The position numbers were made by a program, and so were the translations under genes. A stretch of DNA of 64,000 bases. Source: Yarrowia lipolytica (taxonomy: Eukaryota; Ascomycota; Dipodascomycetes; Dipodascales). Under the pieces are notes generated by a model. It saw only the letters and a list, made by a program, of their open reading frames with translations, ran no database searches and was not told the origin of the DNA. This document shows positions 7,093 through 37,632 of the stretch, piece after piece. Position 1 is the stretch's first letter. Every line of letters starts with the position of its first letter. The stretch lies in NCBI RefSeq assembly GCF_001761485.1, contig NC_090770.1, positions 2,170,001 to 2,234,000 on the forward strand, in the 5' to 3' direction.

Positions 7093-7907
7093 CTAAGATC
7101 GAGGCTTCTCCTTCTTCTCCTTCCAGAGAGCAAGGAGAGAGACACCGGAGACCTTGACAACCTTGAATCGGACACCGGGGATATCTCCCTTAGCCTTACC
7201 CTTTCGACCGAAACCGGCGAGCAGGACCTCGTCGTTCTCGTCGACGAAGTTGAGGCAACCATCGTTAGGCACGAAAGCGGAGACTCGCTTACCGTTCTTG
7301 GTCAGCTGGACTCGGACACACTTTCGGATACCGGAGTTGGGCTGCTTGGCCTCAACACCGATCTTCTCGAGCACAATGCCCTTGGCGTGAGAGGAACCTC
7401 CGAAGGGAGAGGACTTGAAGGCAGTGCCCAAAAGTCGCTTCTTGTAAGAGGCATCAGCCCATCGGCTATGGTTAGTATGGATGCAAAGGGATCGCTTAAA
7501 GCACGGCGTTCACAATGTGATGGTACGTGGCAGATTGGTCAGACGAATACAGCACTTGAACACAGGCAACTAAAAGACACATTCAGTGTCGTCGTGGGAG
7601 AAAAACACATACACAAACACATCATCCATGACACAGAAGAAAAAGGCGCTTGTCGATGACTCCTGTGTCTTGAACTTGTCCATGAACGTTTTCCACCCAC
7701 TCACTGACACACTTCTTTTCGTTTCTTGTGTCACTCTCTTGTTGCCCTTGTATCTTTGTGTCGCTTCCAACTGAACCACCTGTTTCTTTCCCATGGTGAA
7801 TTTGTGTCGCGCATTGTTGTTCGTCTTGTCGATATCACTCACTTGTCTCGTCGGTGGATTCTGAGCTTTCGAGCAGCGTTAAGACCTCTAGGCTTTCCGT
7901 TACCCAT
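7093..7907 (-). CDS. RPS23: 40S ribosomal protein S23 (uS12), two exons
   Basis: Decoding-centre protein of the small ribosomal subunit. Exon 1 (7907-7843) codes [15 protein letters not shown] and then RIHRRD, ending inside an Asn codon before donor GTGAGT. Exon 2 (7465-7093) follows acceptor CTAACCATAG and resumes with [20 protein letters not shown]. The spliced product has 145 residues, exactly the yeast Rps23 length. The universally conserved loop [10 protein letters not shown] is present; its proline is the known hydroxylation site of the family. The intron is 377 nt and sits early in the gene, typical of ribosomal protein genes. Telomere-like boxes lie 145-190 bp upstream of the ATG. Confidence 0.96.
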
Positions 7908-21889: not shown

Positions 21890-23624
21890 ATGTCCAACCT
21901 CGACCAGTCCCTCGACGAGATCATCTCCGCTGCCCCCAAGCGATCCAACCGAAAGAACCGACGAGGAGCAAGCGCTGCTGGAAACGGTGGAGTCCAGAAG
22001 GCCACCCCTGCCGCCCCCAAGGCTGGTACCCCCAAGAACAAGCAGCAGAAGCAGCAGCAGCAGAAGAAGGTCGCTGCTATTGTCAACCCCATTGACGAGG
22101 CCAAGAAGCTCGCCAGCAAGGTCATTATTTCCAACCTGCCCCAGGACATTGGCGAGGACGCCATTCGAGTATGTTAAACCGAAGATACACACACGCGACA
22201 CTGCTAGAGTGATGCGTGGAGTGGACTCAGTTGCACCTGCAGCCTCAAGGCGCACACAGCAACATCAACGGAGCTGATACCGATTCGTGAACGCTTTCTT
22301 CGAAAGTCAGTAGCAAGGGAAGTTGCCATTTTTGTGATGGCAGCACCTCATTCAACAGTAGCCAGTATTTCTGCTCTGCAAAATTCTTGGTGAAGAGTAA
22401 CCGAATTTCCTTCTTTTTAGGAATAAGGTGAAGAGTAGCCAGACGCTTCCCAGTGAAGAATGTGGTGAAGTGATACGCGGTTTCGGGAGCAGATCTGGAT
22501 CGTCCTCGGACTGATTCCTGCGCTCACGGCCATGCTTATATGGCCAACCGACATTCCGAGAACTGAAACTGAACGGCCTTTTCAAAAACAGCTGCTAGAG
22601 AGCTGAGAGCGGTGGGTTTTGCTTGTTGTCATAATGGAGAGAAAGATCGAAAGCACTCATTGCTAATGTGACACGAGCCGGATTGAAAGCTGATGATCAA
22701 AGACCTGCGCATATTCCTTGCCTTGTCTTTGCAGCTGTGCGAGGGAAGAAAAATCCATGTCCAGTTTCAGAAGTCAGCCCCTGGAGGCTGGCAAACCTGT
22801 TGCAAATTGCTTGTCGCAGGTTGTCCCTATTACTGGGATTTCTCAGGAATGAAAGTCTGCACCAGCCTGGCTGGGTCAGAGTTAAAGCCGCCAGTAAGAC
22901 ATTGTATAATCCTTGTCAGATTCCTCTGACACTCATTTATGCTCTGCTTTGCTCCCCATTTTCGGATCAGTTCCGTTGTGATTCACGTGATTCCTTAAGA
23001 ACTCGTGCTGACCATTAGGACTACTTCAAGACTGAGATCGGACCCATTTCCGCCTGCACCATGGTCTACAACAAGGGTGGACACCCTGCCGGAATCGTCA
23101 ATGTCACCTTCAAGCGACAAGGTGATGCTGCCAAGGCCGCCGACAAGTTCAACGGTACTTCCATCGACCGTGGAAAGCGATACATGAAGGTGAGCAGCTA
23201 GACATAACAGAGGAGGATCAAGAGAATCAAGAGGAGGGAAATGCCGGCGACAGTGACGACAAATTACGACCATGACACCATCAAATTGACACTCTGCCTT
23301 ATTTGGACAGGCAGATGTTACTCTGGAGGAGGAATACCATTGATTGCCGTCTACTGCGTGCCGATAATTGCTTGAGACGAAGCGATTTGGATACTAACAC
23401 AGGTTGAGTTGGTTTACGACCCTTCCAAGACCCCTCTGTCTGCCCGACTCCAGCCCAAGCCCGAGCCTGCTCCCGCCAAGGCCACCGTCAACGCTGCCGC
23501 CAAGGCCAAGCAGCAGCAGCAGCAGCAGCAGAAGAAGAAGGCCACTAAGCCCAAGCCCAAGAAGGCCCCCAAGAAGACTGTGGAGCAGCTCGATGCCGAG
23601 ATGGCTGACTACTTCCAGGATTAA
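21890..23624 (+). CDS. YRA1: mRNA export factor Yra1 (ALY/REF), three exons
   Basis: Nuclear RNA-binding adaptor that joins TREX (Sub2/UAP56) and passes mRNA to Mex67. Exons are 21890-22168, 23019-23189 and 23403-23624, giving 223 residues (yeast 226). The N-terminal UAP56-binding motif is LDQSLDEIISAA. A basic Ala/Gln/Lys stretch follows. The RRM starts at KVIISNLPQDIGEDAIR, continues in exon 2 with DYFKTEIGPISAC and ends in exon 3 with VELVYDP. A Lys/Ala/Gln region and a second UAP56-binding helix, LDAEMADYFQD, close the protein. All exon joins are in phase. Intron 2 is ordinary (GTGAGC, CTAACACAG). Intron 1 is 850 nt with donor GTATGT and CTGAC in place of CTAAC, suggesting inefficient, regulated splicing. 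Confidence 0.95.
22169..23018 (+). promoter_or_regulatory. Long, weakly spliced first intron of YRA1
   Basis: 850 nt, lying after codon 93. Donor GTATGT and 3' end GCTGACCATTAG both differ from the GTGAGT and CTAACNNAG seen in the other introns here. The intron meets an in-frame stop at once (GTA TGT TAA), so unspliced RNA codes a truncated protein. In Saccharomyces the YRA1 intron is also very long, follows about 285 nt of coding sequence, has a non-consensus branch site and mediates autoregulation. A like role here is inference. Confidence 0.75.
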
Positions 23625-34691: not shown

Positions 34692-37632
34692 CTAGATACA
34701 GACGGAGTAGTTTCGAACGGGTCGTGCCTCCTCATACTTTACACTCTGCCACAGAGCGTCCCGAATACACTCCATGTTGCCCTGAATCTCATAAGCTCGA
34801 GACAGCAGCCACCAGGCCTCAGCACAGTCAAATCCGTTGCCGGTTCGAGTTACAGACTCAAGCACGGAGGTGACACGAGCCAGAGCAGCTCGTTCGTCTC
34901 TGTCAGAAATGAACAGCGAAGTGGTGGGCTTCTCGATCTTCTTTTCTGTAGCAAGAGCCTGAGTAGGCTTCTTCGCAATGGAGGGGGTAGCAGGAGTCAC
35001 AGCTCCACTGAAACCGTTCTCAGTGCCTCCGTTGATAGACTCATCAAGTTCAGGCTTCTTGGGCTCAATGTTGCTAGCCTGGTCGTCAGGATCTATCGCA
35101 TCAATGATAACGTTGGACAGGGCAATAGCACTTGCCAGAGAGTCAGGTCGAGTGTCCAGAGCGTTCTCCACCTCGTCAAGAGCCTGCTGCGGTCGCAATG
35201 CCACCTTCATGAGCAGAGAGAGCTGGATTCGCGTAGAGGCAGTGGGCCCATCAACTGACTCGGCCTGCACGATGGCCTGCTCACTTTCGTGGACGAGACC
35301 GGCACGTCGATAAATGGCAGCAGCCCACAACCAAAGAATTCGGTGGAGTAATGTGGGGAAGCCAGCAGGCACAGATGAGCTGCCAGCAGAGGTAGGAGCA
35401 ACTGGAGCACTATGTTGATGACCATTTTGGTGAGCGGCAGCAGCAGGCTCTTCCTTCTTCTTTCGTCGCAACACCTTGGAGAACCGTCTACCGGTGGAAG
35501 AAGAGCTCTGGTGTGTAGGCGACACGGAGGGGGCAGTGGCCTGGGTAGCAGTAGAAGGCTTCTGTTTGTGTCCAGGGGTAGGAGCAGCTCCAAAGTAAGC
35601 TCCGAACAGAGCAAACACGTCCTTGAGCAGAGGCAGAATTGCATCGAGACCCTGGTCGGCCTCTCGAATCGCAATCTCGGTCATCTTGAGCTCAATGAGC
35701 TTCTCCTTGAGAGAGTTGGAAGAGGGAGAAGAGAATCGGTCCAGAGTTCCAACAGCCACCTGGATAGCAGCCTGGTAGTCTCCAACGGCAGACAGAAGCA
35801 GAGCAAGCAGATGCCACGACTCAACATGGTCCAGGTTGACAGCCAGCGAGTTTCGCAGCACTTCAATGGCAGGCACGGTTTGACGAGTCTTGGCAAGCAG
35901 ATATGCGTAGTCAAATGCCGGCTCGGCAGCCGGGAGACCCTGAACAGCTCGCTGGAAGGATTTGCAGGCCAGAGCCACGTGCTTTTCTCGGTCCTCAGTC
36001 TCGGTGGCGGCGGACAGGGCGTACAGGGAGTAGGCTCGGCCAATAGCGTAGTCAGCTCGTCCGTATGCTCGCTGCGAGTGCTGCGATCTGTGGTGAAATG
36101 CGGGAGACAGCCACTCCAACAGCCTGTCGGCAGTCTTCTTAGCAGCGTTTCCATCCTTGTAAACGTTAGTCTGGATTCTGAGCGCATCACTGAAGGCCTC
36201 GATAATGGAGAAATCGTCAATGTCCTCATGGGCGCCGGCCTCATTTTTGATTCGGGCGTGCTCCTCGTAGTCCATGAAGACCTCGAAAGAAGCAAGAGCC
36301 TCTCTGTCGTGTCCAAGAGCTGCGAGAATGGCCACCAGCGATCGCATGAGCACTCGCGAGTGGTATGTCTTCTCGATGCCTCGTCTCACCGATTCGAGCA
36401 TCTTGAGAGTGCTGACAGGGTCTCCAATAACTCGGCCGGTTGTGGGGTTGAACTGGTTGGACACTCGCCAATTGGCAACAAGCATATCTGTGTAGCCCTC
36501 GATGGCGGCGTTGGAGTCGGTGGCCTTGGGGATACCTCCGGAGGTTGTGGACTGGGAGTCTAGCAGCTTCTCAAAGTTCTGTAGAGTTTCCTTGGACTCC
36601 TTGGCCAGCTCAGGGTTGGGGCCCGACTCTCGCTGGATACCATTGAGGATCAGCAGATGGGTGTGAAGCTGGTTTAACTGTCGCTGGTGCAGATCGCCGG
36701 CTGACAGCTTGGTCGAAAGTTTGCTCTTGGACAACATATCTGTGATTCGGCCGTACGATCTGAGCGAGTCCAGGGCCCAGTCCTGGTTGGCGGGCAGCTG
36801 GGACGCGCACAGGATCGAGTTTCGGTAGTAAAGCCGCTCAGCCCACACCAGCGCCTCAGGGGAGTTTCCAATTGAGTCGTTGATGAGATGTGACGTGGAG
36901 GCGTAGACGGAGATGGCCTGGTCAATTTCACCGAGCACCTCAAAGGCAGTTCCCAGAATGGCGGCCCGTCTCACAAGTCCAATATCTGTGTAGTGGTATC
37001 GGAAAGAGGGAATGGCGTCGATTTCGCTAATGTCGTTAAGCAACTGCACAACCTCCTTGGGTTCTCGGAGCAACAAGTCTGTGTGTGCGAGAGCCAGATT
37101 GTAGAAGAATGTTTCCTCAGTGTCAAAGTTGGAGGTGTCGACATTCTGGAGGGTGGTTTGAATGGCCTGGAGCTTCTCGACGGGGATTGCCGATGTGGGA
37201 GACAGGTAGTCGGACACGTTGTAGTCGAGGAACAGGGTCACCAGGTTAGTGTCTTCCAGAGCCACTGTAGCAATTCCTGTGTTAGAGTCGTGAGAGCGAA
37301 CTTGTGCATATACCTCAGTTGTACCTCAGTTGTGTCTCAAGTGACGTGTGGTGTTTTTGGCCGGTTGTGTGTGTGTGTTGCTTGTAGATTTCCGTCGTTT
37401 GGGGTCTTGTAGATTCACTTGTCGTCTGTTTCTGTATTCTCATACTCACCTCCATATTCCGGACATTCGTGGTGGATCTTTTGGACCAGCGAGGGCACCA
37501 GGGTCAGGTTTCCGAGGGTCCGGGCCTCGTCGAGCTGCGACACGAGCTGGTTCTTGGGCTGCTGGGTTAGCATTGGCGGTTGTCGTCGTTGGAAACAGTC
37601 GAGATACTCACAATCGAAGGCATATCGGTCAT
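34692..37632 (-). CDS. YPP1: Ypp1 (TTC7-like), scaffold of the Stt4 PI4-kinase complex, three exons
   Basis: Plasma-membrane TPR protein that with Efr3 recruits the PI 4-kinase Stt4 and is involved in endocytic cargo transport. The main exon (37276-34692) has no ATG at its conserved start (LEDTNLVTLFLDYNVSDYLS). Two short upstream exons were found. Exon 1 (37632-37612) codes MTDMPSI and ends in GTGAGT. Exon 2 (37561-37450) follows CTAACCCAG, reads QPKNQLVSQLDEARTLGNL through HHECPEYGG and ends in GTGAGT. Exon 3 follows CTAACACAG. All joins are in phase, giving 905 residues. The body is a helical TPR solenoid; a Ser/Pro/Ala-rich insert with a basic KVLRRKKKEE patch lies about two-thirds along. 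The end LLSRAYEIQGNMECIRDALW is typical of TTC7/Ypp1. Confidence 0.88.

Follow-up and report, generated by a model that had tools for sequence, protein, structure and literature searches.

The first intron of YALI0A20867g, the Yarrowia lipolytica YRA1 homologue, is probably the orthologue of the regulated YRA1 intron of Saccharomyces cerevisiae, combining weak splicing and an NMD output with a likely role in negative feedback. The splicing half of this control looks conserved, and the decay half differs from that of S. cerevisiae. The preliminary description offered the Yarrowia intron as a new inference. The observation has been known since 2010, when its length and branch site appeared in print (PMC2911113). 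The present analysis confirms and sharpens that report, adding the exact homology of the intron junction, an off-consensus donor, an EDC3-type gene in the genome and a structured 3' part of the intron.

Structure and identity of the gene

The window, the whole analysed stretch of 64,000 nt at positions 2170001-2234000 of the first contig, contains a three-exon gene with the following features.

21890..22168, plus strand: YRA1 exon 1, 279 nt or 93 codons from the ATG at 21890, with the N-terminal box and the start of the RRM
22169..23018, plus strand: YRA1 intron 1, 850 nt, phase 0, assayed by RT-PCR and northern blot in PMC2911113
22169..22174, plus strand: 5' splice site GTATGT of intron 1, a 2.2% class in Y. 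lipolytica (PMC13309789)
22175..22177, plus strand: in-frame TAA, reached by translation if intron 1 is retained, with a 95-aa product
22749..23018, plus strand: predicted unusually structured 3' part of intron 1, from single-sequence folding
23006..23012, plus strand: branch site TGCTGAC of intron 1, from the sequence and also in PMC2911113
23016..23018, plus strand: 3' splice site TAG of intron 1, from the sequence
23019..23189, plus strand: YRA1 exon 2, from the gene model
23190..23402, plus strand: YRA1 intron 2, 213 nt, GTGAGC...ACTAACACAG, with a consensus branch site
23403..23624, plus strand: YRA1 exon 3, with the C-terminal box VEQLDAEMADYFQD and a weak FoP_duplication match below the cut-off

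Translation of the three-exon model yields a spliced product of 223 aa. A domain profile search places RRM_1 at residues 78-143 (E 9.2e-13) and finds FoP_duplication at the C-terminus below threshold (17.8 bits against a cut-off of 24.6). In an alignment with S. cerevisiae Yra1, the NLDQSLDEIIS segment and VEQLDAEMADYFQD correspond to its N- and C-terminal Sub2-binding boxes. The protein has the make-up of a YRA1/REF export adaptor, an RRM with Sub2-binding boxes at both ends. Solved REF/ALY chains match it (8srr_C, E 3.5e-8), and the top structure match is 6r5k_D, a poly(A)-binding protein with several RRMs (E 1.2e-8). Its closest homologue is an 'mRNA export protein' of Yarrowia sp. C11, with 90% identity. 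The gene is the Y. lipolytica YRA1 homologue.

A DNA search with intron 1 across the 20.5-Mb, six-contig assembly gives a single match, intron 1 itself. The genome also contains a second REF/ALY-type gene at contig 6, 1128573 (locus 1171-1671), which has an RRM and FoP_duplication above the cut-off. In the alignment, its coding sequence continues without an intron across the YRA1 junction.

Position of intron 1 in the coding sequence

By protein alignment, intron 1 is located at the same codon junction as the S. cerevisiae YRA1 intron, so that 850 nt of intron occupy the corresponding coding position. R93 of the Yarrowia protein and R95 of S. cerevisiae Yra1 share alignment column 106 and are followed by DYF and EFF, respectively. 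Of the S. cerevisiae sequence used in this alignment, the last 30 residues were matched to the solved chain 5sup_G. The alignment at the junction comprises 10 of the 30 homologues. P0012 (Debaryomyces fabryi, 143 aa) starts with about nine unrelated-looking residues and is alignable from the junction onward, while P0025 and P0030 lack the N-terminal part and start just after the junction. These three of the 30 homologues look like gene models with a first exon missed behind a long intron at the junction.

The boundaries of the S. cerevisiae YRA1 intron are 285/1052, and the stop codon ends at 1447 (PMC2864733). The intron is thus 766 nt long and follows 95 codons, in agreement with the 766 nt after about 285 coding bases given in the preliminary description.

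Splice signals

Three properties set intron 1 apart: its length, its branch site and its donor. It starts with GTATGTTAAACC and ends with CGTGCTGACCATTAG. The gene model reproduces exactly the preliminary picture of an 850-nt intron after 279 coding bases, with a GTATGT donor, a CTGAC-type branch site and an immediate stop. That account called the intron non-consensus, which holds for the branch site; the donor is off-consensus as well, a point it left unsaid.

More than 92% of Y. lipolytica introns contain the CTAAC motif (PMC2911113), whereas the branch site of intron 1 is TGCTGAC. A scan of all 850 nt of intron 1 finds neither CTAAC nor GTGAG. Among canonical introns of the species, the donor is GTGAGT in 73.0% and GTATGT in 2.2% (PMC13309789). 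Splicing efficiency is lower for introns of 100-300 nt and for those above 700 nt than for others (PMC13309789). The 2010 gene models include 61 introns longer than 700 nt, and the size figure of that study is based on 1,083 coding introns (PMC2911113).

The sole site in intron 1 that lies within one change of ACTAAC and has A at position 5 is AGTAAC, which ends 617 nt before the 3' end. The branch-site rule of PMC13309789 (ACTAAC, at most one change, A at position 5) would overlook TGCTGAC and allow only AGTAAC.

Intron 2 ends in CTAACACAG and has a consensus branch site. Two minus-strand introns of the window, 37277-37449 and 7466-7612 (147 nt), end in CTAACACAG and CTAACCATAG, respectively. 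All three fit the earlier statement that the other introns here end in CTAACNN(N)AG. The two minus-strand introns lend this rule weak support, because they are 2 of 17 candidates from a window scan that required a consensus-type end. Intron 7466-7612, whose host gene resembles that of ribosomal protein RPS23, also has the rare GTATGT donor, yet a consensus ACTAACCATAG end. The donor alone is therefore not diagnostic.

The best U1 duplex is -4.4 kcal/mol for intron 1, where it is out of register, versus -8.8 kcal/mol for intron 2. The predicted U2 duplex is -4.5 kcal/mol for TGCTGAC, where the branch A is not bulged, and -4.6 kcal/mol for a consensus site in the same flanks. Since TGCTGAC pairs no more weakly than the consensus, U2 pairing energy gives no support for weakness. 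The weakness of the intron 1 signals is judged solely from published frequencies.

Retention of intron 1 and NMD

If intron 1 is retained, translation stops at the TAA at 22175-22177, the third codon of the intron, leaving more than 1 kb of RNA 3' of the stop. Retention thus introduces the premature stop expected when it is coupled to NMD. Retention of intron 2 would stop translation after 153 codons.

The accessible text of PMC2911113 (Mekouar 2010) names YALI0A20867g and describes its 850-bp first intron and TGCTGAC. RT-PCR in that study confirmed splicing of intron 1, and the retained form was not seen. On a northern blot, the retained form was present in upf1, upf2 and the double mutant, and absent from wild type and xrn1. 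Its authors concluded that the transcript is inefficiently spliced and that the unspliced RNA is an NMD target. A legend of the same paper states that intron 1 is 'efficiently spliced out' in wild-type PO1d, and the two statements must be read together. Efficient constitutive splicing had been named beforehand as an outcome that would speak against shared control, and this legend goes half of the way to it. In a later q-RT-PCR analysis, YRA1 retention was 27-fold higher in upf1-delta and 0.58 in y14-delta (PMC6351623, 2019). The retained form in the upf1 and upf2 mutants, together with the 27-fold increase, supports weak splicing of intron 1 with a decay output.

Such an output does not by itself imply regulation. 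Intron 1 might be merely leaky, its weak signals and length causing a constant splicing failure that NMD clears. In PMC6351623, 634 introns were examined; retention differed significantly in upf1-delta for 41 and was higher in 40 of them, and the affected introns showed no evident relation to length or transcript features. Retention of SUB2 rose 47-fold, compared with 27-fold for YRA1. The 2010 authors speculated on spliceosome recruitment or assembly for first introns generally, and wild-type splicing was termed efficient (PMC2911113).

A SUB2-like gene is found in the region of contig 1, 1127466. Its model has a putative 618-nt 5'UTR intron (locus 580-1197) that ends just 5' of the ATG, and a 59-nt coding intron (locus 1446-1504) with a GTAAGT donor, TCTAACACAG and a consensus TCTAAC branch site. 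The tentative assignment of the gene to SUB2 relies on its length and DECD box. The assayed SUB2 intron could be either of the two. Because this model carries a coding intron with a consensus branch site and SUB2 retention rises so strongly, NMD sensitivity alone is no proof of regulation.

Against a leaky intron, PMC2911113, citing Preker and Guthrie 2006, states that a long intron occurs in every hemiascomycete YRA1 homologue and that its branch site is divergent in nearly all of the species. The YRA1 intron was the only retained one for which the 2010 authors remarked on a degenerate branch site (PMC2911113). In S. cerevisiae, moreover, removal of the intron leads to overexpression of Yra1. 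An unregulated, leaky intron appears on the whole unlikely, and it stays a serious rival because 40 of the 41 changed introns rise in upf1-delta and SUB2 increases 47-fold.

Decay of the unspliced RNA

In S. cerevisiae, modules A and B of the YRA1 intron direct Edc3 decay, while modules C, D and E repress translation and shield the RNA from NMD; the translational repression elements map to nt 672 to 1052 from the AUG (PMC2864733). Inactivation of Mtr2 makes the YRA1 pre-mRNA an NMD substrate (PMC2864733). The Yarrowia retained RNA behaves like this NMD default.

The same mechanism in Yarrowia would involve export of the unspliced RNA, a translational block by intron elements together with Mex67-Mtr2, and Edc3 decapping. 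The genome does contain an EDC3-type gene: a reading frame at contig 4, 1755705 has FDF and YjeF_N above the cut-off, and an N-terminal Lsm-type domain was not hit in the protein at E 0.1. The absence of such a gene thus does not explain the difference in decay. The structured 3' part of intron 1 would also accord with this mechanism, given the location of the S. cerevisiae repression elements. However, the retained Yarrowia RNA rises in upf1 and upf2 and not in xrn1, whereas the S. cerevisiae pre-mRNA evades NMD. The literature examined yielded no Yarrowia edc3 mutant. The mechanism is largely refuted for Yarrowia and must be regarded as very improbable there. The 2010 authors also considered the S. 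cerevisiae export and Edc3 decay mechanism probably not conserved in Yarrowia (PMC2911113).

These results divide the preliminary description's proposal of a control shared with Yarrowia. The long intron, the poor branch site, the homologous position and an unspliced RNA that is made and destroyed all stand. The decay route probably does not carry over.

Predicted structure of intron 1

Intron 1 RNA is predicted to fold unusually strongly, mainly towards its 3' end, as judged from a single sequence. The sense fold reaches -288.7 kcal/mol, whereas its shuffles average -257.0 kcal/mol (z -3.99), and 0 of 100 shuffles are as stable. A separate fold run gives z -3.76 on 20 shuffles, and the reverse complement has z -1.33. 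For comparison, 16 random 850-nt plus-strand segments of the window range from z -2.09 to +3.74 (25 shuffles each). A further 28 folds of 600-nt segments range from z -1.82 to +1.41 (30 shuffles each); these are both strands of the first 14 of 31 window segments crudely ORF-tested as non-coding. The putative 618-nt SUB2 5'UTR intron and YRA1 intron 2 have z -1.01 and -1.67, respectively. The fold controls consist of window segments and these two introns.

Within intron 1, the 600-nt pieces 22419-23018, 22294-22893 and 22169-22768 have z -3.42 (0 of 60 shuffles as stable), -2.13 and -1.04. The best of nine 300-nt segments is 22749-23048 (z -3.47), and its neighbours have z -1.30 and -0.35.

Sequestration of the branch site was considered and dropped. 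In the lone intron, the branch site pairs with nt 52-62 (eight of nine pairs with P 0.73-0.94 and the last with 0.52), but when the intron is folded within three larger contexts, every pair falls to P 0.1 or below.

Rfam gives no match at the gathering threshold within the window. In the accessible text of PMC4937481, the S. cerevisiae YRA1 intron is among those with predicted structure, found in Saccharomycetaceae, and multiple compensatory changes support only the RPS13 intron.

A different job for intron 1, for example as a structured RNA element or the host of another RNA with weak splicing as a by-product, would agree with the strand-specific stability of its fold, but is a remote prospect given the lack of an Rfam match in the window, the single match to the genome by DNA search, the weak evidence that single-sequence folding provides and the instability of the branch-site helix to context.

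Proposed control of YRA1

Regulated splicing of intron 1 with an NMD output is favoured by the gene model, the junction, retention in NMD mutants, the 2.2% donor, the inefficiency of introns longer than 700 nt and the precedent of S. cerevisiae. With 850 nt separating two weak signals, the donor and the branch site, intron 1 may be excised slowly or incompletely, and inefficient splicing of this intron has also been proposed in print (PMC2911113). The unspliced RNA would be exported and translated, would meet a stop after 95 codons and would be subject to Upf1/Upf2-dependent NMD. Splicing of intron 1 would in this way set the amount of full-length Yra1 that can be made.

By analogy with S. cerevisiae, where high Yra1 inhibits splicing of its own pre-mRNA, the most likely purpose would be negative feedback: excess Yra1 would slow removal of its own intron and divert the RNA to NMD. 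In the literature searched, largely without subscription papers, no Yarrowia experiment varying Yra1 level was found, and the accessible parts of PMC13322074 and PMC10897858 contain nothing bearing on Yarrowia YRA1. Counting against the proposal are the description of wild type as efficiently spliced, NMD-sensitive retention that is not special to YRA1, the occurrence of GTATGT in another window intron, and U2 pairing of TGCTGAC no weaker than the consensus.

A broader and rather doubtful scenario is that the weak YRA1 intron was an ancestral dosage switch of budding yeasts, perhaps of wider fungi. Its original output would have been NMD, as in Yarrowia and apparently Cryptococcus, and Saccharomyces would have added the translation-hiding and Edc3 elements. 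The sensing half would have been kept and the decay half rewired, and the structured 3' part in Yarrowia could be the site where Yra1 or a partner acts. This ancestral-NMD reading was not found stated in the literature examined, which was largely without subscription papers. If feedback does operate in Yarrowia, distant yeasts would limit a shared export factor through one and the same intron, the disposal pathway having been exchanged, a clean case for how a control loop outlives the replacement of one of its halves.

Comparison with known systems

The intron described here is identical to that of Y. lipolytica YALI0A20867g in print, with 850 bp, TGCTGAC and accumulation in NMD mutants (PMC2911113, PMC6351623). 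Like S. cerevisiae YRA1 (YDR381W), the Yarrowia gene has a long intron at the same codon junction, a poor branch site and a stop if the intron is retained, and dosage control as in S. cerevisiae may be expected by analogy. Unlike S. cerevisiae YRA1, it possesses a second intron, and the donor of intron 1 is rare for its species. The branch site of S. cerevisiae YRA1 is GACTAAC, and that of Yarrowia is changed at a different base. The S. cerevisiae pre-mRNA evades NMD and takes the Edc3 route through five intron modules (PMC2864733), whereas the retained Yarrowia RNA builds up in mutants defective in NMD, but not in xrn1 (PMC2911113).

In Cryptococcus neoformans, retention in YRA1 (CNG03240) is raised by UPF1 deletion; the accessible text of PMC5006051 does not identify the intron. 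Such upf1-responsive retention would fit an older NMD output. The splicing-autoregulated yeast genes RPL30, RPL22 and RPL7B resemble the control proposed here in that the protein limits splicing of its own RNA, and differ from it in their proteins and introns.
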